Shown: in pieces, positions 7,655 through 21,264 of the stretch
Position numbering within the stretch: the first letter of the stretch is position 1
Layout of the letters: the number at the start of each line of letters is the position of its first letter
Source: a virus
IMG/VR virus record: IMGVR_UViG_3300006875_000207
Coordinates: 1 to 21,264 of that record
Reading direction: 5' to 3' (one strand)
Length of the DNA stretch: 21,264 nucleotides
The notes under the pieces: generated by a model
Databases searched by the model: none
What the model saw: the letters and a program-made list of their open reading frames with translations, nothing else
Told to the model about the DNA's origin: nothing
Translations under genes and position numbers: made by a program

Positions 7655-8410
7655 TCAGCGGATCCGGAGTCGCACCGGCCGTTTTTTCTCCACAACAGCA
7701 CAGTTTTCCTCGTCAAAACTGGCCCCCGCCAGGACGTTGGACCCCTGCGGCCAGCCAACGATCTGCAGTGACCGGATCCGCCGATCCAGCTCCTGGGTGA
7801 ACGCCAGGAGCCTGGTCACCACGCCCCACAGCGTGGCAATGCGGGGGTCCATGTCGGCGGAGTTCTTCTGGTAAAAGAGGAAGTACTGATACAGGTCGCC
7901 TTCGCCGCTCTGTCCTTGCGGGCCAGCGGGTCCACGGGCGCCGTCCTTGCCGGGGGCGGGCTCACCGTTGATGGTGTCGGCGTTGACGTTCCCGGCGTCC
8001 ACGTTCTCCACAGTCACGTTTTGGATGTACGTGTCGCCTTCAATGGTCACTGATGGACCGGCGTAGTACTGATTCAGATTCTGCGTGAGCGATGTACGGA
8101 GGTCGAACTGGGGCGATCCGTAGTAGGTGCTGTACCAGTCACCGGCCCTGTAGCCACCATTGCCTGGAGCCTCCACAAACCCGCCGTCCTGGAGGTTGGG
8201 GAACAGCTCTGGGTAATCGCCTGGATTCCATCCTGACTGCGACAGAACTCCGCCGCGCTGCGGGAATGAGGCGTTGCCGAATGCCACAGGCCCCCGATGC
8301 TCCAGGGGTTGGGCGCAGTTGAACAGGGCTTGCGACAATGCCTGCGCCAGCGCGGGCGGCATCTGCCCGTCAGTTGCCCGGTTGAATGCTGGAGCTGCGC
8401 GTGTCAGCAT
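7655..8410 (-). CDS. Virion protein with a short collagen-like stretch (251 aa)
   Basis: The start is the ATG at 8410, which overlaps the nozzle stop as TAATG; an upstream in-frame ATG would place over 180 residues inside the nozzle gene in another frame and is rejected. Residues 119-150 are a short beta-rich run with regular Val/Ile/Asn spacing (SVTIEGDTYIQNVTVENV). Residues 154-171 are six Gly-X-Y triplets of collagen type (GKDGARGPAGPQ and on). Residues 172-220 are helical with a possible coiled coil (VVTRLLAFTQELDRRIRSL). A beta stem, a collagen triplet run and a coiled coil are the hallmarks of trimeric phage fibres or spikes, so a trimeric tail or neck appendage is a fair inference. It lies directly after the tail nozzle. 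Confidence 0.88.
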   Translation of the reverse strand: MLTRAAPAFNRATDGQMPPALAQALSQALFNCAQPLEHRGPVAFGNASFPQRGGVLSQSGWNPGDYPELFPNLQDGGFVEAPGNGGYRAGDWYSTYYGSPQFDLRTSLTQNLNQYYAGPSVTIEGDTYIQNVTVENVDAGNVNADTINGEPAPGKDGARGPAGPQGQSGEGDLYQYFLFYQKNSADMDPRIATLWGVVTRLLAFTQELDRRIRSLQIVGWPQGSNVLAGASFDEENCAVVEKKRPVRLRIR

Positions 8411-11046
8411 TACTGCACCCCCGAAACGGCAAGGGCGTGGAGTTGCACGGTCCCTGTGGTCTGCGATCCAGACACGGCCACGGCCATGTGCTTGTCTCCA
8501 CCACCGCTCTGGTCCGTGACCCGTCCCGCATAGCTCGCCTTGGCGTAGCCATTGGCGGCACCCAAGGCGCTGCGGTCGGAAGCCATGTTGAGCGTGGCGA
8601 CGGTGGATCCTGTGGCGACGACGAACCCGTCTCCGCGGTTGGATGCCACGGCGTTGGCCCGTGCAGAGTCGGAGTTGTTGAAGTGCAGGCCAAGCTCCAG
8701 CGTCTCTGGAGTCGGCGTGTAGACCACGCTGACGGCCCGGTTGCCGTCCTCGTCCTTTAGCATCAGCGGGGCGGTGCGGTACTGGTACGGAATGGCCGTA
8801 GAAGACCCTGATGTGCTGGCATCCACACGGCCCGAGGACTTCAGCATGCCGCCTGCCTCGCCCCCATAGATCACCGACTGCCGCTGGCCGATGCTGGTGG
8901 AGGCGGCGTGGCCGAGCGATTGGGCAAACGTCTCCTCCCACCATGCCTGCGTGGACAGGGAGTAGCACAGCGCCCGTGACGGGTATGTGCCGTCCGTGGA
9001 GCGGCAGTAGAAGAAGCGAACGACGCGCTCCTGGGCGTTTACCTTCACGTAGCAGTACTTCCGCTTGGAGAAGTCGATTACGCCGTCCCGCCAGTAGTTG
9101 TCCACGGCTGCCGAGATCGCCTCCTCCTGCGAGCCGTCGAAGGCGTACAGGCCGTAGTCGTCAGCGATGAATGCCACGCCGCCGAACACATCCCAGCACC
9201 TGGAGTTCAATGCTCCGCGGTAGGAAGCCAGGGTGATGGAAGCATCGATGACCGGCTGGCTCACGTATTGGAGCTTGTAGATGTGCCGGGACTGTGCGAC
9301 CAGGAGTGAGGAGCCAAAGGGAATCAAAGCGACAATGGCGTCTGAATCGACAGCATTCTCCTGGAGGACGAGTTCGTTCGACTCCGGGACGCTCTCTGGC
9401 TCATCGATCTCGGAGTAGTACAGGCTGTTGGGCTTTGACCCGGTGGTGTCAACCGCATACCACGCCCGGTCCTGGAACATGCAGGCCACGCCCAGGTTGG
9501 TCGGCGGGGGATCGAAGCGGCGGGCATTGACCTGGCCGCTCGGCAGGACGACAGGCATCAGGCCGTACTTGCTCGTCACGTTCCCGGACGTTGTGTCTCG
9601 GTCCACATCCAAAAGCTCGCCGTCCGTGAGCGTGTCCACGTACGGAGTGCTTGGGATCTCGCCAGCCACCTTGTCGATGCGGGCCACACGGTACAGCACC
9701 ACCGACTGGTCAGCGGTCGTTCGCCACAACTCCACGGCATGGACGCGGGACTCCATGTCCGCATGGTTGAAGTTCCAGGTCAGCGACTGCAGTCCGGCGG
9801 AAGCGTCTACCTCCCGAAGCTCCGAGATTGAACTGGGGATTGGGCCGCCCTGCGATTCTGGCGTGTCATCCAGGTAGCGGATGGCGCACTGGTAGATTCC
9901 CTTCAGCGTCGGCCGCAGCACCGCCACGGCCCTGGCGCTGGTATCAGCCACCTTCACCGTTGGTTTCAGTCGGTAGCGTCCGCCCGAAAGCATGGTGACG
10001 GCCGTGATCTGCCCGGTGGCGTTGACAGAACAGGTAGCCGCCGCGCCTGTGCCGATGGGATCGGCGGGGTCAGGGAGGAACGTGAGGACCGGAGGAGTCA
10101 TGTACCCAGAGCCAGAGCTGGCAATGGACACCGACTGCACGGAGTACTCCAGGACTGGGGTGACGAGCGCTTGCGTAGTCGCCCCGCCGCCGGTCAGCGA
10201 GGCCGTGACGCCAGTGCTTGTGGCCCCCGTCCCGGCCGCCAGGATGTTGTGGCCGATGATCACGCCAGCCACATCATCAACGGTGACCTGGACGTTCGCG
10301 CCAGTGAGGCCCTGCGTGTTGTTGAACGTGATCGTCGGCTGCCCGGTGTAGCCAGCGCCGCTAGAGCTGAACTCCAGGTCAGCGAGACTGCCTTGGATGT
10401 TGCACGTAAACGCGGCCCCGCTTCCAAGGCCGCCAGAGAATGCGACCTGCGGGGCGGATGTATACCCCTCACCACGGCCAGTGACCTTCACTCCGGACAC
10501 TCGTCCGTTGGCGACGGTCGCCGCACCAGTCGCCTGCGTCGTCGCCCCGCCACCGGAGAACGTGACTGTGGGCACACCACCGTACCCGGCACCGCCGTCG
10601 ATGACCTGCACGGCAGCCACGTAGTTCTTCTGGCTGGCCGTGGAACCGACCGGGGCTACGAATACGGATGGCTTGGAGATCCCGAGCGGCTCCAGGTGCG
10701 GCGTGTCGCCATCCCACCGGAACCCGCGCCCGTAACCGTCCACACCGTACATGTCGTTCCAGCGGCCCTTAAAGAAGGACAGCGGCCGGGTGCCAGCGTA
10801 GGACAGGACGGTAGCCGTGGCGGCTGCACCGGAGCCTGTGGTTGCGGAGAAGGAAATGGCCGGGGCCGATGTGTAGCCGGTTCCGGCGTTGGTGAGGACC
10901 ACGGCCTGGAGTGCCGTGCCGTTCATTTGGGCAACCGCAGCCGCGCCCGTCCCACCGCCACCGGAGACGACCACGGTCGGAGCGGAGGAGTATCCGCTTC
11001 CGCCAGTGGCCACAGTGATCTTTACGACTCCGGACGCCAACTGCAT
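8410..11046 (-). CDS. Tail nozzle protein, main part, with glycine-tyrosine beta repeats (878 aa)
   Basis: The C-terminal two thirds resemble the tail nozzle or DNA-stabilisation proteins of podoviruses: residues 90-122 (FFKGRWNDMYGVDGYGRGF) and, further on, SLYYSEIDEPESVPESNEL, a LLVAQSRHIYKL strand and the DYGLYAFDGSQEE region are typical of this beta-propeller family. Such proteins close the portal channel below the adaptor. The N-terminal part holds about eight copies of a roughly 40-residue repeat with the core G-x-G-Y-t-s-a-P, at residues 16, 55, 152, 192, 230, 272 (degenerate), 312 and 354 (degenerate). Conserved nozzle sequence of about 57 residues interrupts the array between copies two and three. 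The ATG overlaps the stop of the preceding gene as TGATG. The usual nozzle N-terminus is not here but in that preceding gene, in another frame. Confidence 0.92.
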   Translation of the reverse strand: MQLASGVVKITVATGGSGYSSAPTVVVSGGGGTGAAAVAQMNGTALQAVVLTNAGTGYTSAPAISFSATTGSGAAATATVLSYAGTRPLSFFKGRWNDMYGVDGYGRGFRWDGDTPHLEPLGISKPSVFVAPVGSTASQKNYVAAVQVIDGGAGYGGVPTVTFSGGGATTQATGAATVANGRVSGVKVTGRGEGYTSAPQVAFSGGLGSGAAFTCNIQGSLADLEFSSSGAGYTGQPTITFNNTQGLTGANVQVTVDDVAGVIIGHNILAAGTGATSTGVTASLTGGGATTQALVTPVLEYSVQSVSIASSGSGYMTPPVLTFLPDPADPIGTGAAATCSVNATGQITAVTMLSGGRYRLKPTVKVADTSARAVAVLRPTLKGIYQCAIRYLDDTPESQGGPIPSSISELREVDASAGLQSLTWNFNHADMESRVHAVELWRTTADQSVVLYRVARIDKVAGEIPSTPYVDTLTDGELLDVDRDTTSGNVTSKYGLMPVVLPSGQVNARRFDPPPTNLGVACMFQDRAWYAVDTTGSKPNSLYYSEIDEPESVPESNELVLQENAVDSDAIVALIPFGSSLLVAQSRHIYKLQYVSQPVIDASITLASYRGALNSRCWDVFGGVAFIADDYGLYAFDGSQEEAISAAVDNYWRDGVIDFSKRKYCYVKVNAQERVVRFFYCRSTDGTYPSRALCYSLSTQAWWEETFAQSLGHAASTSIGQRQSVIYGGEAGGMLKSSGRVDASTSGSSTAIPYQYRTAPLMLKDEDGNRAVSVVYTPTPETLELGLHFNNSDSARANAVASNRGDGFVVATGSTVATLNMASDRSALGAANGYAKASYAGRVTDQSGGGDKHMAVAVSGSQTTGTVQLHALAVSGVQ
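9949..11010 (-). repeat. Tandem protein repeats in the tail nozzle gene (about eight copies of about 40 codons)
   Basis: The repeat core G-x-G-Y-t-s-a-P is followed by a beta strand and a Gly/Thr/Ala-rich turn (for example TVTFSGGGATTQATGAATV). Copies begin at nozzle residues 16, 55, 152, 192, 230, 272, 312 and 354; those at 272 and 354 are degenerate. Spacing is 38-42 residues except between copies two and three, where about 57 residues of conserved nozzle sequence intervene. Copies differ in DNA sequence, so the array is old or under divergent selection. Confidence 0.85.
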
Positions 11047-14492: not shown

Positions 14493-16505
14493 CTATTGGG
14501 CCGGTGGGGGTGGTGGAGGTGCTGGCGGTTCGCCGGGTTGCGGACCTGGTGGAGGAGGCCCTGGCGGCGGCGGCGGGGGCGGCGGAACCAGGAACTCCGC
14601 CACATCCATCTGATTCACCTTGCCCCAGGTCTGCAGCATGGCGTTGAAGATTTCTGGCTTCCCGGCCTGGAGAAGCCCTTGCGCCACGGGGGAGATGATC
14701 TGCATAAACGTGTTCAGGTTCTCGGTCTTGGTGGCGACGTTCGGCTTCCGGGCGCTGCCTGCCTCAACACGGTAGGAATACTCGCGGACGATGTTGTCCG
14801 GGGCCTCGTTCTGTACGTGCATGCCCCACGCCTGGGCCGCCATCGGGCCAAGGAGCGGTTCAACGTCCTGCGGGTAGATGAGCCACCGTGCCATCAGGGC
14901 CTCCTTGCGGGCGACCTCCGACAGACGGTCCTCCAATGTGTTTGCGTAATCGTCTGGCCTGACCGAAATTTGCTCGCTCTTCACGGCGGCCTCTGCCGCA
15001 CTTCGGAAGGCTGACCTGGTCATGCCATAGATGAGTTCGGTCAAACCCACGCGGCGGTCGAACAGCTCCGTGACGGCCTGGATGATGTTGTACATGTCCT
15101 GGGTGACGCCAGGCATTTGAAACACGGAGATGACATCGTTGACCGAGCGACCAACGGCCTCCGAGATTTCTACGATGTTGAACCCGCCCTCGCTCTTCTC
15201 CAGGATCTTCGATTTGATGTCGGGATCCGCGGCCTTCGCTACGCCAATCAACGTCTGCGATGAAGTGGCGATCCGCGTGGCGAGGAAAGACATCGCCCAA
15301 TTGATAAAGCGAAGCTCCCCGATACCTGGTTTGATCAGACTGATCGGCCAGGAGTAGCCAGGCTGGCGGTGCCAATCCAAGAGCGTGAACGGCCATCCGT
15401 TCGGCTCCGCCCAGAAGGGGATCGGCCACTGGCAGGACATGAACAGCGACTGCGGAATGCCAGTCTGATCGACCTCTTCCTTCAACATCGCTGGTGGAGC
15501 GTTGAGCGGGAAGTCGATTCCCTCCGCAACGACGATGTAGCAGTTCGGACCAAGGGCGTCGAACTTGCCACGCAGATCCTTGTCTGCGTCCTTCAGCCGG
15601 TCACCGAACCCGGTCTTGGAGTAGACCTCCCAGTAGCAGATCAGGTCGTTCGTCTTGCCGGTCTTCTTCTTGTACTCATAGCCCCGGTCGTTCTGGTCGG
15701 CCCGAGACGAGTACGATTCGATGTGGCCCTTCAGGTCATCCCGTGACAGGCCAAACTTCGCCGCGACTTCATCGATTGGCTGGACTCGCTTGCGGGCCGC
15801 CCAGCGGATGTCATCGAACTCGTCGGCGTCAGGATCCCAGACGAGGTTGTCAACGGAATCGTAGAACGAACCGGCCATCTTCACCTGCGAGCCTGGCGGC
15901 TGGTACAGCTCATGCCACCACACCCCGGCACCCTTAATGAACGCCTCGTCCACCACCTTCCGCGTGTGGCGTTTGAGATCCAGTTCGTTGGGCGTGTAGT
16001 TCAGGTAGTCTTCCAGGAGCTTGGCGATGAGCTTGCGCCGCTCATACATGAACCCCTGCTGTTCAACAGCCTGCTGGTAGGCGACGAACATCGGATCCGG
16101 CATCATCACCGGCTGGCCGTCCATGCCGATGACCGGCTGCCCGTCCGGCCCCATCTGCGGAACTGGGGGCTGCGGATTGATACCCAGGAGCGCCGGGCCG
16201 ATCACCGGGTAGTCCTTGGGCGTGACCGTTCGCACCGGGTTGCGGTGGTGGATCACGGAGCCAAAGAGCGTTACGGCCTCAAAGACACGGTTGACGACCA
16301 TCCGGAAGGGCGGCGGGGTCAGGCCCTTGTTGTAGCCCCGCTCGCCCCGGGCATGCTCGTTTGCCCACATGGCGTTCGGATCTGACGAGTAGAAGCCCAT
16401 GGCCTCCTTGGCGTCGTCCGAGAACACCTTCTTGTGTTTCTCGCCCTGTTTGATGCACTCCAGCCACCGCTTGGCAATTGGGCGCAGGGGATTTTCGTCG
16501 GGCAT
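14493..16505 (-). CDS. Portal protein (670 aa)
   Basis: This forms the dodecameric ring at one capsid vertex through which DNA is packaged and ejected. The ATG at 16505 has a strong AGGAGA site 4 bases upstream. Length (670 residues) fits podovirus portals of the P22-like size range. Portal-like stretches include FRMVVNRVFEAVTLFGSVI (67-85), the NLVWDPDADEFDDIRWAARK region, PFTLLDWHRQPGYSWPISLI and GLTELIYGMTRSAFRSAAEA, which probably covers the crown and clip region helices. Residues 641-670 are almost all proline, including runs of eight, four and six, with a few Gly, Gln, Glu and Ala. Gene order after the large terminase supports the call. The proline tail may be exposed inside the head or bind another protein; that is inference. 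Confidence 0.95.
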   Translation of the reverse strand: MPDENPLRPIAKRWLECIKQGEKHKKVFSDDAKEAMGFYSSDPNAMWANEHARGERGYNKGLTPPPFRMVVNRVFEAVTLFGSVIHHRNPVRTVTPKDYPVIGPALLGINPQPPVPQMGPDGQPVIGMDGQPVMMPDPMFVAYQQAVEQQGFMYERRKLIAKLLEDYLNYTPNELDLKRHTRKVVDEAFIKGAGVWWHELYQPPGSQVKMAGSFYDSVDNLVWDPDADEFDDIRWAARKRVQPIDEVAAKFGLSRDDLKGHIESYSSRADQNDRGYEYKKKTGKTNDLICYWEVYSKTGFGDRLKDADKDLRGKFDALGPNCYIVVAEGIDFPLNAPPAMLKEEVDQTGIPQSLFMSCQWPIPFWAEPNGWPFTLLDWHRQPGYSWPISLIKPGIGELRFINWAMSFLATRIATSSQTLIGVAKAADPDIKSKILEKSEGGFNIVEISEAVGRSVNDVISVFQMPGVTQDMYNIIQAVTELFDRRVGLTELIYGMTRSAFRSAAEAAVKSEQISVRPDDYANTLEDRLSEVARKEALMARWLIYPQDVEPLLGPMAAQAWGMHVQNEAPDNIVREYSYRVEAGSARKPNVATKTENLNTFMQIISPVAQGLLQAGKPEIFNAMLQTWGKVNQMDVAEFLVPPPPPPPPGPPPPGPQPGEPPAPPPPPPAQ

Positions 16506-16529: not shown

Positions 16530-16850
16530 TTACTTGGCCTTTTTCGGCTCCAGGGCCTCCAGCTTCTTCTCCAGCAGGGAAACCCGCTCGGAAAGCAGGG
16601 CAATCTTGGGATCCTTGGCCCGATGCTCCCAGAACCCGTACCGCTTCCACTCCGGGAACTCCTGCACCCCCTCGTCGCTGACATGGTGGACAGAGGGCTT
16701 CACGGTGACCCCGGCCTCGCCGGACATGGCGAACAGGGTCAGGGTGCGGGCGGCTGCCTTGCAGACAATCGCCGGGACGGCAGTGGCTCCCTCATGGGGC
16801 ATAAACAGGACAATCTCACCGACATCGGCCTTGGGCATTTCGTAACTCAT
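16530..16850 (-). CDS. Small beta-domain and coiled-coil protein between terminase and portal (106 aa)
   Basis: The ATG at 16850 is used because it overlaps the large terminase stop as ATGA and has GGGAG about 10 bases upstream; an in-frame ATG at 16886 would add 12 residues inside the terminase gene. Residues 8-57 look like a small beta barrel (VGEIVLFMPHEG, then VPAIVCKAAARTLTLFAMSG), and residues 83-101 form a short leucine coiled coil (IALLSERVSLLEKKLEAL) followed by a lysine tail. No family was recognised. Small genes in this slot are common in short-tailed phages and are often of unknown function. A coiled coil suggests it forms an oligomer. Confidence 0.87.
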   Translation of the reverse strand: MSYEMPKADVGEIVLFMPHEGATAVPAIVCKAAARTLTLFAMSGEAGVTVKPSVHHVSDEGVQEFPEWKRYGFWEHRAKDPKIALLSERVSLLEKKLEALEPKKAK

Positions 16851-18538
16851 CGCTTCACACTCCCATTGGGGGCTAGGAACACACACGGATCTTCGGACTC
16901 ACGCTGTCGTCTCAGACGTTCGGCTCGCCACTTCACCCACCACGGCTCTGGGCCAACCTTAGTTGGCGGCCTGTGGTACTTGGGTTCGTATGCACAGAGG
17001 TATTCGGCGGTCTGGCATGCATGGACCTCGCCGCGGGTCTGCGGCTCGTCGGTCACGTACACCTGGCCATTGACGGTCGTCGTCTTCTTGCGATACCGCT
17101 TCAGCTCCCGGACGAGGTTGGGGCAGCCACCCTCCAGGATTTTGAACTTGGTGGTGCCGTCGCCACGGATGTGCATGTACTGCCGCACCATGGCCGTGCG
17201 GGCGGGGATGTCGTCGGAGCCCGGGAGGAACTGGTGGCCCGTGAGGGCGAAGCGGTAGTTCCGCTTCTTCAGCTCCTCGGAGTACATCTCATGCGGCAGA
17301 CGGCCGGACCCGAGGTCACGCAACGCACCGCCGTGCATGTCCATGATGGCGGCGTAGATGTACTGGTGCTGGGCCTTGGCGAAGAACTGCTCTCCCCAGA
17401 TCAGGGCGTTGCAGTTGCGGATGTACAGTTCGTCGTAGAAGAGAACGAACTTCTCATCGGGCGGGACGGCAGCGAACAGCGTGGCCATCACGGCATGGCC
17501 AGGGTCAATCGACACGTACCTCGTCCAGTCAGATGGGATCTGGCCGTCTGGCAATTCGTTGCGACCCATCATGTGGACTGACGCATTGAACGTCGGGTAC
17601 ATGAGCGTGGAGCCGGTGGTGAACTCCCCCTCGGCCCGCATCTTCAGTTCGTCTTGCCCCAGTGCCGCCCACCGCTCCAGGTTCTTCTTTTTCTCCTCCT
17701 GGTCGATGTGGTCGTTGTCCAGGAATCGGAGAACAAACTTTCTGATGATGGGGTTCTCAATCCCATCCTCGTCCGCCCTGTCGGCCCGCTCGCACAGACC
17801 AAGGAGCGCATCATTCTTGGACCACGGCATGGCCGACCACACAAAGCGGCCCTTGCGATCCGAAAGCCGGGCCTGCATTTCGCCAACCCACCGCTCGTTA
17901 TTGATGTCCTCATCGATGTGGACGAGGTCGGCTTGGAAACCCTGCGGAGGCTCGCCTTCAGAAGAGAAGCAGTAGATAGTCCAGCCGTTGGTCAGCTCGG
18001 CCTTGTTGAGGTATCCCGCGTTCTTCTGGGTCCATGCCATGTCTTTGATCATGCGCGGCGGAATCAGCGGCGGGGCTGGCTTGGACTCGCCCTTGCGCGC
18101 AGCGTCCTTTGCCGGGTTGAAGGCCCGCCACAGCCCAGTAGCCTCGTCCCGGATGATTCGGAAAGCCCCCGCCTTAAACAGCATCGGGTACACAACCATG
18201 CCGATGTGCTGCCAGTTCTTTCCGATGACCACCAAGTTTCCGTTTTCTCTTGGGTACTTCCCATGCGGATCCTGGCCGGTGGCTGCGCGGGCGTCTTCTA
18301 TAAACGTGCATGCGCTCTTGCCGCTTCTGTTTCCTCCGATGACCAGCCGTTCGCTAGCCGTGCAGGCGTGGAACGCTTCCTGTTTGGGCATCGGCACCCA
18401 AAGACGCAGGGCCTCCAGGCGGCGCTCCGCAAGCGCGGCCTGAACGTCCTTCATCTGCGTCAGGGCATGCTGCGTCAGCCCACCGATGGGCTCGTCGTCA
18501 GGCTTCTGGGGAGGCGGGATTTTGGGATGCTTTCGCAC
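16847..18538 (-). CDS. terL: Terminase large subunit (packaging ATPase and nuclease, 563 aa)
   Basis: This motor pumps DNA into the procapsid through the portal and cuts the concatemer. The ATPase domain shows Walker A GGNRSGKS (residues 68-75), Walker B LVHIDED (205-211) and a following strand with WSAMPWS (234-240) that may be the coupling motif. The C-terminal RNase H-like nuclease has candidate metal-binding aspartates D345 (VSIDPGH) and D400 (IMDMHGG), with a third acidic residue probably near E504. Length is normal. The start is a GTG at 18538, the first start after an in-frame TGA; it overlaps the cysteine miniprotein gene by 41 bases and has no clear ribosome site, so the exact start is less certain. 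An ATG at 18454 is the main alternative. Confidence 0.96.
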   Translation of the reverse strand: MRKHPKIPPPQKPDDEPIGGLTQHALTQMKDVQAALAERRLEALRLWVPMPKQEAFHACTASERLVIGGNRSGKSACTFIEDARAATGQDPHGKYPRENGNLVVIGKNWQHIGMVVYPMLFKAGAFRIIRDEATGLWRAFNPAKDAARKGESKPAPPLIPPRMIKDMAWTQKNAGYLNKAELTNGWTIYCFSSEGEPPQGFQADLVHIDEDINNERWVGEMQARLSDRKGRFVWSAMPWSKNDALLGLCERADRADEDGIENPIIRKFVLRFLDNDHIDQEEKKKNLERWAALGQDELKMRAEGEFTTGSTLMYPTFNASVHMMGRNELPDGQIPSDWTRYVSIDPGHAVMATLFAAVPPDEKFVLFYDELYIRNCNALIWGEQFFAKAQHQYIYAAIMDMHGGALRDLGSGRLPHEMYSEELKKRNYRFALTGHQFLPGSDDIPARTAMVRQYMHIRGDGTTKFKILEGGCPNLVRELKRYRKKTTTVNGQVYVTDEPQTRGEVHACQTAEYLCAYEPKYHRPPTKVGPEPWWVKWRAERLRRQRESEDPCVFLAPNGSVKR

Positions 18539-18713
18539 GTTCGTTCATCTGCTGAATCGTTGGAGACGACCACTCGCCGCACCAGCTTGCGCTTCTAGTG
18601 ACGGGGAAGGAGTCGTCCTCATCCGGCTGGACGGTCGGTGGATATCTCCGACACAGGCCGTTGCTCTGGTAAATGAATTCCCACCACCGGCAGGTTTGGC
18701 ACACTTGTTCCAT
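18498..18713 (-). CDS. Four-cysteine miniprotein nested between terminase genes (71 aa)
   Basis: The ATG at 18713 has a strong GAGGTGA site, identical in its GAGGTG core to the site of the glycosyltransferase gene at the head of this cluster. An upstream TTG is possible. Cysteines at 5, 8, 21 and 45 lie in a CQTCRWW, GLCRRYPP and SWCGEW arrangement. I recall this C-x-x-C, Trp, C-R-R, W-C-G-E-W pattern from a widespread small bacterial and phage protein, probably metal-binding (zinc or iron-sulfur), but its function is not known to me. The first 95 bases overlap the end of the preceding gene in another frame, and the last 41 overlap the large terminase. Despite these overlaps, the motif and the ribosome site argue for a real gene. 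Confidence 0.82.
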   Translation of the reverse strand: MEQVCQTCRWWEFIYQSNGLCRRYPPTVQPDEDDSFPVTRSASWCGEWSSPTIQQMNERAKASQNPASPEA

Positions 18714-19209
18714 CAATCACCTCAACCTTCTGAATGTTCATGGCGGCCTCCAAGACTTGGCGTCTCAGCTCGGCCTCCAGCTCTTCTTCGCTCATCAACT
18801 CCAGCGGCTTCTTGGCACCGCCCATGGCAGTGTTGCCGACCACCAGGCGGACCACGGAGTCCAGCATCTTGGTGCGAAACGCTCCGCCAACGGGGGCGTC
18901 GTAGAACTGCTTCATGTAGGCGTTGGCAAACCCACGCACCCCGCCGAAGTACTCCATGATGATTTCCAGGAGTTCGGAGGAGTGCGGGATGTTGGCCCCG
19001 CCCAGTCGGGACGCCTTAATGAAGGAGTCCACGGCGGACTTCTCAATCCGCGCCAGCCGCTTGTTGCGGACCTGCTTCCGCTCGCCCTTCATCTTGTCGT
19101 TGCGGCACTTGCGGCAACGGGCATGCAGGCCGTCCTTGGACTTGTGGAAGTTCTCCGCCGTGGCCGGGTACGAAGTTCCGCAGCCGATGCAAGTCTTGTA
19201 TTCAGACAC
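18619..19209 (-). CDS. Zinc-ribbon protein, putative terminase small subunit (196 aa)
   Basis: Residues 7-35 form a zinc ribbon (C7-x-x-C10, then C32-x-x-C35) with the FHKSKDGLHARCRKC spacing common in phage DNA-associated proteins. A basic helix follows (40-57). Residues 78-155 are helical: LLEIIMEYFGGVRGFANAYM, RTKMLDSVVRLVVG and LMSEEELEAELRRQVLEA. The gene lies one step upstream of the large terminase, the standard place of the small subunit, which recognises the packaging site; the DNA-binding features fit, but no specific small-terminase motif was recognised, so the role is inferred from position. The start is a GTG at 19209 overlapping the previous gene by 8 bases. The last 31 residues overlap the cysteine miniprotein gene and look low in conservation. 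Confidence 0.88.
   Translation of the reverse strand: MSEYKTCIGCGTSYPATAENFHKSKDGLHARCRKCRNDKMKGERKQVRNKRLARIEKSAVDSFIKASRLGGANIPHSSELLEIIMEYFGGVRGFANAYMKQFYDAPVGGAFRTKMLDSVVRLVVGNTAMGGAKKPLELMSEEELEAELRRQVLEAAMNIQKVEVIDGTSVPNLPVVGIHLPEQRPVSEISTDRPAG
18718..18723 (-). promoter_or_regulatory. Ribosome binding site GAGGTG for the cysteine miniprotein
   Basis: GAGGTG lies four bases before the ATG at 18713 and is buried in the coding sequence of the upstream zinc-ribbon gene. It is the main nucleotide-level evidence that the nested frame is translated, and it decides for the ATG over the TTG one codon upstream. Confidence 0.7.
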
Positions 19210-20602
19210 TACTGGACCACACCGTGCCTTGCGTCTGGAAGTCTTTGAACTGTTCCCGCACAGCCTGCGTCACGCCATGGAACAGGCCGTAGTCATGGCC
19301 AGCCACCACATGCATGGCCAGCGGCCGCCAGAGCGCAATGTCTGCCATCACAGAGTCGTAATCATGCTCGGCGTCGATGTAGACGATGTCGAACCGCTCG
19401 CCCATGCCAGCGAAATGCTCCGCCGCGTCCCGGGAGCTGCCACGGAAATAGCGGAGCTTTCCCGCAGACGACGCCTGCTTTGTGTTTGCCAGGAACGTCT
19501 TAAAGGCCGTGGCCGCATCGACGCCTTTGGTCCCGCTGTCGTTCTTGTTGCCCTCCCAGTGGTCGATGCACGTTACCGTCGCACCAGCCTCCACCATGAT
19601 CAGCGCGGACCTTCCGGCCCATGATCCGATCTCGGCCACCTTCGGCGCACGGCCATGTTTGGCGATGAAGTCCCTGACGATCTTGCGAATGGCATCTGCG
19701 TCCGTTGTGTGGAGATCCATGCCCAGGCCATTGAACGGCACGGCCTCCAGCCACTTTGGGGTTGGCAGGTCGATCAGCTTGGTGCCAGAGTCAACCTTGG
19801 CGTCCCAGCAGTCCTTCAGCTTGGAACTCACGCTTTTGGCGTCGATGATCTGCGGCTTGCTGACGCACTTCGGCTTCCAGTGCCCTGCCCAGGCGTCCCA
19901 GTTGCAGTAGACGGGACTGTACCCCAGTTTCTGGGTGCCAACGAGCGACAAGTCCCGCGTCTGCGTAACGTCCTCAGTGGACGCCTTCTCAGAGGCGTAC
20001 CTGTCCTTCCACTCATAGTAGAACCACGGCTTGTCGTTGTCGGCCTTCGGCTCCGTGAGATCGAAGCACCGCATGTCGTACATGATCAGGCCGGTAGGCA
20101 GGGCGGCGCATTCCTGAATCCCGGCCAGCTTCACCGCCGTGTGCCGGTCGTACATCTCCAGTTGGAAGTCTGGGTTCGGGTTCTCCGATGCCCAGTTATT
20201 CCAGCGGAAGACATACACACACTCCACGGGCGGAGGCCCGCAGTACGGGGCACCGATGCAGCATGGCCCCTTGTGGTAGTGATCAACCAGGAAGTCGAAG
20301 CTGCTTTTGAAGAACGGCTTGGCGTCCGGCTGGCCTGCGAGGATGTCAGGCTTCATGTCGCTATCGACCATCACCAGGACATCGATGCCATGCTCCCTGG
20401 CCATGAGAACGGCCCGGTTGCGGGTCATGGTGATCGGCGTGTCGGCCAAGTTCCAGACGCGGATGCCGGCTACCCGCTCGTCCTTTGATAACTCCAGCAC
20501 CGTGGGCAGCATCCACTCACGGATGTCAGGCACCTCAGAGGAGATGCCGCCGTTGCCGCCGTATGAGAACGTAACGATGCCGACCTGGAACTTTTGCTGC
20601 AT
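19202..20602 (-). CDS. Glycosyltransferase-methyltransferase fusion (466 aa)
   Basis: Residues 1-245 look like a GT-A fold glycosyltransferase: the strand VLVMVDSDM (76-83) gives the metal-binding D-x-D (80-82), TMTRNRAVLMARE (59-70) precedes it, STEDVTQTRDL (208-218) resembles the ED motif of family 2 type enzymes, and GHWKP (240-244) could supply the late metal-binding histidine. Residues 315-466 look like a class I SAM-dependent methyltransferase, near the Methyltransf_24 family: motif I VAEIGSWAGRSA (322-333), acidic D347 after strand two, FDIVYIDAEHDYDSV (404-418), GHDYG (435-439) and a VW close to the end. The likely job is to add a sugar and then methylate it, or to modify a glycan in two ways. 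The target could be a virion protein, a host surface glycan or a nucleotide; nothing here decides. The ATG at 20602 has a strong GAGGTG site. Confidence 0.93.
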   Translation of the reverse strand: MQQKFQVGIVTFSYGGNGGISSEVPDIREWMLPTVLELSKDERVAGIRVWNLADTPITMTRNRAVLMAREHGIDVLVMVDSDMKPDILAGQPDAKPFFKSSFDFLVDHYHKGPCCIGAPYCGPPPVECVYVFRWNNWASENPNPDFQLEMYDRHTAVKLAGIQECAALPTGLIMYDMRCFDLTEPKADNDKPWFYYEWKDRYASEKASTEDVTQTRDLSLVGTQKLGYSPVYCNWDAWAGHWKPKCVSKPQIIDAKSVSSKLKDCWDAKVDSGTKLIDLPTPKWLEAVPFNGLGMDLHTTDADAIRKIVRDFIAKHGRAPKVAEIGSWAGRSALIMVEAGATVTCIDHWEGNKNDSGTKGVDAATAFKTFLANTKQASSAGKLRYFRGSSRDAAEHFAGMGERFDIVYIDAEHDYDSVMADIALWRPLAMHVVAGHDYGLFHGVTQAVREQFKDFQTQGTVWSSSV

Positions 20603-20606
20603 GTGT

Positions 20607-20612
20607 CACCTC
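20607..20612 (-). promoter_or_regulatory. Ribosome binding site GAGGTG for the glycosyltransferase fusion
   Basis: GAGGTG lies four bases before the ATG at 20602. It fixes the start and suggests independent initiation after the non-coding gap. Confidence 0.75.
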
Positions 20613-20628: not shown

Positions 20629-20657
20629 AGTGTACAGTTCTAACTTAGGAATCGCAA
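20629..20657 (-). promoter_or_regulatory. Candidate sigma70-type promoter for the packaging and morphogenesis genes
   Basis: In the 76-base gap, reading the minus strand, TTGCGA (20652-20657) and TACACT (20629-20634) are separated by 17 bases. Each hexamer matches four of six consensus bases. The gap is the largest non-coding stretch in the window and lies just before the glycosyltransferase fusion gene, which itself has a strong ribosome site. A phage-specific or alternative promoter cannot be excluded. The rest of the gap contains a weak 4-bp inverted repeat (GCGG and CCGC around 20658-20672) but no convincing terminator. Confidence 0.4.
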
Positions 20658-20678: not shown

Positions 20679-21264
20679 TCACATCCTATAACCACCGTGC
20701 CGCTGGGCAGGGGGCCGTACTGGGTTCAGCCGCCTATGCTGCTCCAGCCACCCGGCCGTACTCAGATCGCGGCGTGGGGCAGCCGGTGGCTGACTGGGAG
20801 ACTGGGTCTGCTGGCCTGGTCGCTGCGGCAGCACTGGCTGAAGCTGCCGGGACGGGCCAGCGGACGGGTACGGTATGTTTGCATTGTTTGCTGGCCCACT
20901 AGCGGGGGGGACCAGCGTCAGAACGGGTGCCTGGCGGCTACCAGCCTGCCCTCCAGTGGTCGGCATGCGGATGTTTTGCATCTGTTGCCGCAAGCCCTCC
21001 CAGCCACCAGGCACCGCCGGTCCAACTAGGCTGCGGCCGCCGGACGGCGGTGATGCGCCGACGCCAGGCTGACCTGGACGCGGCGGCGGGGCGGCAGGCG
21101 GCTGTTGAGAGAACGGATTCTGGTAACCGTCCTGAACCATCTGCCCGGCCTGCGACCACATCTGGTTGGGGTTGAACTGCATCGGTTGGCCCCAGGATGC
21201 TGGCGGGGCGCCCTGGCCACCGTACACGCCACCCGTGGCCATGGAGCGACCGGCCTGGTCGTTG
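20679..21264 (-). CDS. Pro/Gln-rich phage protein, N-terminus beyond the window
   Basis: The frame is open from the right edge to a TGA at 20679. An ATG exists at 21242, but it has no ribosome site and the codons before it (NDQAGRS) continue smoothly, so the gene probably starts outside the window. The visible part is Pro-, Gln- and Gly-rich (NPNQMWSQAGQMVQDGYQNP; QPPAAPPPRPGQPGV), with one short helix-like stretch (GGWEGLRQQMQNIRM), and ends in an Arg- and Pro-rich tail with HGGYRM. It is probably disordered. Composition resembles other proteins of this phage, which supports a real coding frame. Function unknown. Confidence 0.75.
   Translation of the reverse strand, partial: NDQAGRSMATGGVYGGQGAPPASWGQPMQFNPNQMWSQAGQMVQDGYQNPFSQQPPAAPPPRPGQPGVGASPPSGGRSLVGPAVPGGWEGLRQQMQNIRMPTTGGQAGSRQAPVLTLVPPASGPANNANIPYPSAGPSRQLQPVLPQRPGQQTQSPSQPPAAPRRDLSTAGWLEQHRRLNPVRPPAQRHGGYRM

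Follow-up and report, generated by a model that had tools for sequence, protein, structure and literature searches.

Few cases of virion glycosylation have been described in phages. Mycobacteriophages glycosylate capsid and tail-tube proteins with transferases of their own, such as Che8 gp110 and Corndog gp38 (PMC12363180). In the chlorovirus PBCV-1, the O-methylated tip of the capsid glycan is made by the soluble protein A064R, a fusion of GT-A, glycosyltransferase, and methyltransferase domains; when the A064R methyltransferase domain is truncated, the virus produces the glycan in unmethylated form (PMC9614988). MeT1 is a sugar O-methyltransferase that methylates the 1-OH of mannosides (PMC9883506).

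Here, we describe a phage gene in which a predicted glycosyltransferase is joined to a predicted methyltransferase. It lies in a stretch of viral DNA of 21,264 nucleotides (IMG/VR record IMGVR_UViG_3300006875_000207), which was analyzed as a whole and is referred to as the window. A preliminary description of the window had proposed the fusion. Its open reading frame is borne out exactly and lies on the minus strand, which had been left unstated (Table 1). The residues named at that stage sit where claimed, namely D80-S81-D82, E210-D211, H241, motif I at 322-333, D347, and D410. Judged from sequence and predicted structure, the gene is a real, active-looking fusion, and the type of reaction assigned to each half is likely.

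Table 1. Positions of the fused gene, its predicted functional residues, and its neighbors in the window
Feature	Position	Strand	Basis
Fused glycosyltransferase-methyltransferase (predicted), whole gene, 466 aa	19202..20602	minus	ORF, ATG start; 171 IMG/VR relatives
N-terminal half, residues 1-286, predicted GT-A fold, core module	19745..20602	minus	AF2; Foldseek; 63/63 TerL-baited loci
D80-S81-D82, putative DxD metal/nucleotide-sugar motif	20357..20365	minus	Invariant in 80 diverse relatives; after strand 75-79 (model)
E210-D211, candidate catalytic base region	19970..19975	minus	Invariant in 80 relatives; N-terminus of helix 210-226 (model)
H241, candidate third metal ligand	19880..19882	minus	Invariant in 80 relatives
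C-terminal half, residues 287-466, predicted class I SAM O-methyltransferase (Methyltransf_24), optional	19202..19744	minus	Pfam, AF2, Foldseek, PDB profile
Methyltransferase motif I, residues 322-333, VAEIGSWAGRSA	19604..19639	minus	E324, G326, W328, A329, G330, S332 invariant in 36 relatives
D347, predicted acidic SAM-binding residue	19562..19564	minus	Nearly invariant in 36 relatives
D410 of the Y-I-D-A-E-H motif, candidate metal/catalytic region	19373..19375	minus	Invariant in 36 relatives
H436-D437 (GHD), candidate second metal-ligand site	19292..19297	minus	Invariant in 36 relatives
Zinc-ribbon/endonuclease VII-like gene, helical C-terminal part, 8-base overlap with transferase gene	18619..19209	minus	phrog_1035, E 1.7e-9
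Large terminase (TerL)	16847..18538	minus	Weak Terminase_6N; matches phage terminases
Portal protein, P22 type	14493..16505	minus	PF16510 above cut-off
Pro/Gln/Gly-rich low-complexity gene, upstream of transferase gene	20679..21242	minus	Composition survey
Promoter-like pair TTGCGA-17-TACACT	20629..20657	minus	Position and type conserved across relatives
Ribosome-binding-site-like GAGGTG	20607..20612	minus	Sequence; recurs in relatives

Domains of the fused protein

An AF2 input of 43 close relatives gave a poor model of the N-terminal half, which was improved by an 80-row diverse alignment (residues 1-285, pLDDT 77.9, pTM 0.77). The model has a GT-A arrangement, in which a strand leads into the DxD motif, the ED pair opens a helix, and H241 comes after the strand that follows. 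All five of these positions are invariant in the 80 relatives, which reach down to 54% identity. A Foldseek search of the PDB returned COLGALT1, with STIV A197 (2c0n) in second place, as well as KfiA, GalNAc-transferases (GalNAc-T2), and LH3, the top matches being modest (TM 0.4-0.55). Some nucleotidyltransferases of the same superfold are also present. The matches among viral models (BFVD) are phage proteins that carry GT-A glycosyltransferase annotations, and the best of these is named 'Methyltransferase FkbM'; a TAGT-type (TET-associated) transferase is found among the weaker ones. Structure prediction and fold search, the check suggested in the preliminary description, place this half among the GT-A glycosyltransferases and not outside them.

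At the sequence level, the N-terminal half has no match in Pfam, PHROGs, NCBIfam, or the PDB (phmmer and profile searches) and none to any characterized glycosyltransferase, and no known family model detects it. Matches to beta-glucosidase in the PDB sequence search were judged to be due to chance. A Pfam search with the N-terminal halves of the 80 members gave no hit worth counting, and PF00535 is absent from 19 carrier genomes of near 60 kb. The comparison with GT2 enzymes proposed earlier holds for the GT-A fold but not for the family, as no GT2 (Glycos_transf_2) sequence match was obtained. Because family models give no match, we assign this half to GT-A by fold only and not to GT2. According to the model, it likely represents a sequence-novel family of GT-A glycosyltransferases, with sugar transfer as its likely reaction.

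The C-terminal half contains the sole Pfam match of the protein, Methyltransf_24 (PF13578) at residues 324-429 (57 bits, cut-off 26.3, E 4.1e-15). Its AF2 model, with a pLDDT of about 94 over most of its length, matches TrmR, MeT1, and COMT in Foldseek. Searching with a profile of 36 C-terminal halves, we found MeT1 of Mycobacterium hassiacum (6g7d) as the only PDB sequence match (E 2.8e-5). Pfam, Foldseek, and the PDB profile search uphold the assignment to the class I methyltransferases, and the sequence and model suggest that this half likely acts as a SAM-dependent O-methyltransferase. The half also matches phrog_2675, labeled 'DNA methyltransferase', a label that we rejected as a function because the match covers only the generic methyltransferase part.

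The statement that both halves keep their key residues extends from the window to its relatives, 80 for the DxD, ED, and H241 positions and 36 for motif I and D410. Pairwise dN/dS, which is approximate with dS near 1, is 0.147 for the transferase half and 0.300 for the methyltransferase half; both are under purifying selection. The preliminary description had named two observations that would speak against it, a transferase half placed outside the glycosyltransferases and homologues in which both halves are always inactive. Neither was made, as the key residues are conserved and purifying selection acts on both halves.

The carrier lineage and the methyltransferase domain

IMG/VR holds 171 loci that match the whole protein and about 300 that match its N-terminal half, and the longest contigs with the transferase gene cluster at about 60 kb. 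A tblastn search of 50,697 phage records with the N-terminal half gave no match at E<=1, and the TerL and portal protein of the window share only about 25% identity with recorded phages. In a GTDB set with a single genome for each species, matches are limited to two MAG contigs (L182 and L183; loci are numbered with the prefix L). The carriers form an uncultured phage lineage, which we take, by impression from the source datasets, to be largely freshwater. L183, which belongs to a Pirellulaceae MAG, has the transferase-methyltransferase gene (7998-9412) split between two frames, reflecting either sequencing error or decay.

Loci were also collected with TerL as bait. Among those with at least 1,700 bases upstream, a set that spans down to about 73% TerL identity, the transferase half is present in 63 of 63 and the methyltransferase half in 17. 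With the transferase as bait, TerL is found downstream in all 238 loci, and the zinc-ribbon gene lies downstream on the same strand in 215 of them. Relative to the window, the transferase half has a median identity of 78.6%, TerL of 73.3%, and the portal protein of 77.6%, with 63.9% for the zinc-ribbon protein and 48.7% for the methyltransferase half. The transferase half is a core gene, conserved to the level of TerL and portal. The significance of the gene lies in this conservation of a likely sequence-novel GT-A family, to the degree of terminase and portal, across a widespread uncultured phage lineage.

The same fusion was searched for in other phages and found, in the 171 loci above, but it is variable, and the methyltransferase is missing from about half of the relatives. 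The 136 unique transferase halves comprise 62 fused to the Methyltransf_24 type, 72 solo forms, and 2 with a different methyltransferase, proportions that were drawn from best-80 lists and are not population frequencies. L113 was excluded from the solo forms, since it only looked solo, its gene being cut by the contig end. The frame of solo genes closes where the domains of the fused form join, directly followed by the next gene. Exactly one Methyltransf_24 match, in a frame of the size of the fusion, is found in 7 of the 19 near-60-kb genomes and none in the other 12. A methyltransferase of the same family supplied in trans was therefore rejected for the solo phages, as none is present elsewhere in the 12 unfused genomes.

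The transferase tree implies 15-16 changes of architecture, of which well supported branches force at least 7, and a single clade of fused forms is rejected (p-AU 5.2e-8). The nearest transferase-half relatives of the window are solo, except for the near-copy L005. The methyltransferase tree joins the window and the L006 group (98). Acquisition of the window's methyltransferase from this group was considered and not upheld; a transferase tree constrained to keep the two together is not rejected (p-AU 0.075).

L122 and L021 hardly differ up to residue ~279 and beyond it are related only as methyltransferases, a difference that, by comparison of the two sequences, is a recent abrupt domain swap. 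In L153, the replacement methyltransferase passes the cut-off of RMNT_CmcI, a family named for rhamnosyl O-methyltransferase. The divergent fused members L142 and L169 have longer, strongly diverged methyltransferase halves, which could represent a further acquisition. As the sequences indicate, the methyltransferase has joined, been lost, or been exchanged several times between lineages.

Genomic setting and proposed function

The genes of the late block are all on the minus strand, in the order transferase gene, zinc-ribbon gene, TerL, and portal; the transferase gene therefore precedes TerL and portal. Its placement just before the terminase genes in the preliminary description is correct in this sense, but the zinc-ribbon gene stands between. 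The product of this intervening gene may be a small terminase with a captured zinc ribbon.

The gap ahead of the transferase gene had been described as promoter-like. It is 76 nt long and holds the pair TTGCGA-17-TACACT, with 8 of 12 matches. A strict promoter scan alone found none in the window, and the case for a promoter comes from conservation across relatives. Of 119 unique regions upstream of the gene in relatives, 40% contain a sigma70-like pair that matches at 9 or more of 12 positions, compared to 1.7% of shuffles, and the -10 element ends 21-26 bases ahead of the start codon in nearly all cases. The other late genes of the window have lower upstream promoter scores, apart from an equal one at a 103-aa gene. 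From these sequence features, the transferase gene probably opens the packaging/late transcription unit.

The helical C-terminal part of the zinc-ribbon protein is conserved, and L182 (1562-2050) encodes a similar-looking protein without the zinc ribbon at the same place before TerL. The TerL genes of L078 (2301-4850) and L184 (10007-12568) contain intein-like insertions directly after GGNR, in the Walker A region; the insert starts with Cys, and in L184 the host sequence picks up again at SGKS. The Pro/Gln/Gly-rich gene precedes the transferase in most relatives (median P+Q+G 34%), with an HNH-type endonuclease gene between the two in some (L224, L226, and L232). Its product was considered as an acceptor, a role that composition alone does not support. 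A late structural ORF of the window (7655-8968) contains a short collagen-like GXY stretch (GKDGARGPAGPQGQSGEG), which may be of interest, since a collagen galactosyltransferase ranks first among the fold matches of the transferase.

We propose that a virion protein is glycosylated by the gene product, acting as a soluble late enzyme, and that its O-methyl capping is interchangeable. Argued by analogy, this proposal has in our view an even chance of being correct. The enzyme would be made as the first product of the packaging/late transcription unit. Its GT-A domain, using a divalent metal (DxD, H241) and a host-made nucleotide sugar, would transfer the sugar to a phage product made late, for which a virion protein is the likeliest candidate. 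No gene of the sugar-nucleotide epimerase family was found in the genomes, so the donor sugar would have to be supplied by the host. The C-terminal O-methyltransferase would then cap or tailor the sugar transferred by the same polypeptide. Since this domain is lost, gained, and exchanged between lineages, it would be an interchangeable tailoring module that alters the exposed glycan rather than being required for it.

The virion as target is argued from the late-operon position, the core status of the gene, the lack of a recognizable membrane part, and the precedents of A064R and the mycobacteriophages. A sugar as methylation target is favored by MeT1 as the sole PDB sequence match and by the RMNT_CmcI replacement in L153. 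More tentatively, and with somewhat less than even confidence, we suggest that this phage family has an obligatory packaging-unit glycosyltransferase, of a new enzyme family, that decorates its virions, and that their 'glycotype' is switched by plugging in, dropping, or swapping the methyltransferase domain. If true, this would be a modular glycan-variation system in tailed phages.

Three uses had been put forward for the enzyme at the outset. The virion glycan is favored among them, DNA or nucleotide modification is disfavored, and modification of the host surface is the main rival. In this last case, which we consider possible but unlikely, the enzyme would glycosylate and O-methylate host LPS, capsule, or a lipid-linked sugar and so block superinfection by related phages. 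The packaging-gene neighborhood would also suit a target outside the virion. Tyrosine integrase-like genes in 13 of the 19 near-60-kb genomes (e.g. L274:6701-7555) suggest temperate members, for which modification of the host surface would also be possible. Gain, loss, and exchange of the module would suit receptor arms races, and host glycans are the substrates of characterized sugar O-methyltransferases like MeT1 (PMC9883506). Against this, the gene is fixed ahead of TerL in 238 of 238 loci, has a promoter-like pair of its own, and is conserved like TerL and portal, and no polytopic membrane partner was noticed adjoining it. Surface-conversion genes, in contrast, are usually variable and lie outside the packaging block.

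The two halves might also have come together by chance and have no functional relation, in which case the methyltransferase would act on something else. About half of the relatives lack this domain and have no other Methyltransf_24 in the genome, which fits such an origin. However, the architecture has changed at least 7 times on well supported branches, and a different methyltransferase of the same superfamily was swapped in at the same junction. We argue that repeated change together with replacement at one junction reflects selection on a coupled function, and regard a chance joining as improbable.

Highly improbable, in our judgment, is a role in DNA or nucleotide modification, in which the sugar would be put on a modified base and then altered by the methyltransferase. 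The phrog_2675 label, the TAGT-type transferase among the weaker fold matches, and the adjoining packaging genes are in its favor, but the 19 near-60-kb genomes contain no thymidylate-synthase-type hydroxymethylase (PF00303), no TAGT match (PF20691), and no credible Tet/JBP (PF12851; one 13-bit match, in a 32-aa frame). Moreover, the methyltransferase is like sugar/catechol O-methyltransferases and unlike those base methyltransferases that carry a recognition domain. A catalytically dead or structural GT-A domain (e.g. an assembly or glycan-binding factor), with the methyltransferase riding along, would suit the extreme conservation, the strict packaging-gene linkage, and the second PDB fold match to the viral GT-A-like protein STIV A197 (2c0n), but is just as hard to credit, as a dead domain need not keep DxD, ED, and H241 unchanged across 80 relatives with identities as low as 54%.

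Comparison with known systems

The proposed glycosylation of virions with exchangeable O-methyl capping has counterparts at several levels. COLGALT1, GalNAc-T2, KfiA, and STIV A197 share the predicted fold and the DxD/ED/His arrangement with the N-terminal half, but are only 9-13% identical to it. Its best viral fold match, A0A6J5M7M7 ('Methyltransferase FkbM', BFVD) from an uncultured Caudovirales phage, differs in its length of 788 aa and shares 14% identity over the aligned part; the name suggests another phage combination of GT-A and methyltransferase. A literature search for a phage GT-FkbM fusion found none. MeT1, as the only and remote PDB sequence match of the C-terminal half, methylates a mannoside hydroxyl, but is a stand-alone enzyme and not part of a fusion.

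Che8 gp110 and Corndog gp38 are phage-encoded transferases, as proposed for this gene, but are not described as methyltransferase-fused (PMC12363180). No sequence-level homology to them was seen, the N-terminal half being without a match in the 50,697 phage records.

In A064R, as in the phage protein, a GT-A domain and a class I methyltransferase, the latter C-terminal, are parts of one virus-encoded polypeptide. The two differ in that A064R has two glycosyltransferase domains, compared to the one GT-A domain of the phage protein, and belongs to a virus that infects algae. Drawn from domain architecture and description, the comparison is one of how the proteins may work. Natural alleles of the phage gene without, with, and with a different methyltransferase, including the near-identical L021 and L122, make the role of phage O-methyl capping directly testable, and A064R with its methyltransferase truncated resembles the natural solo alleles.
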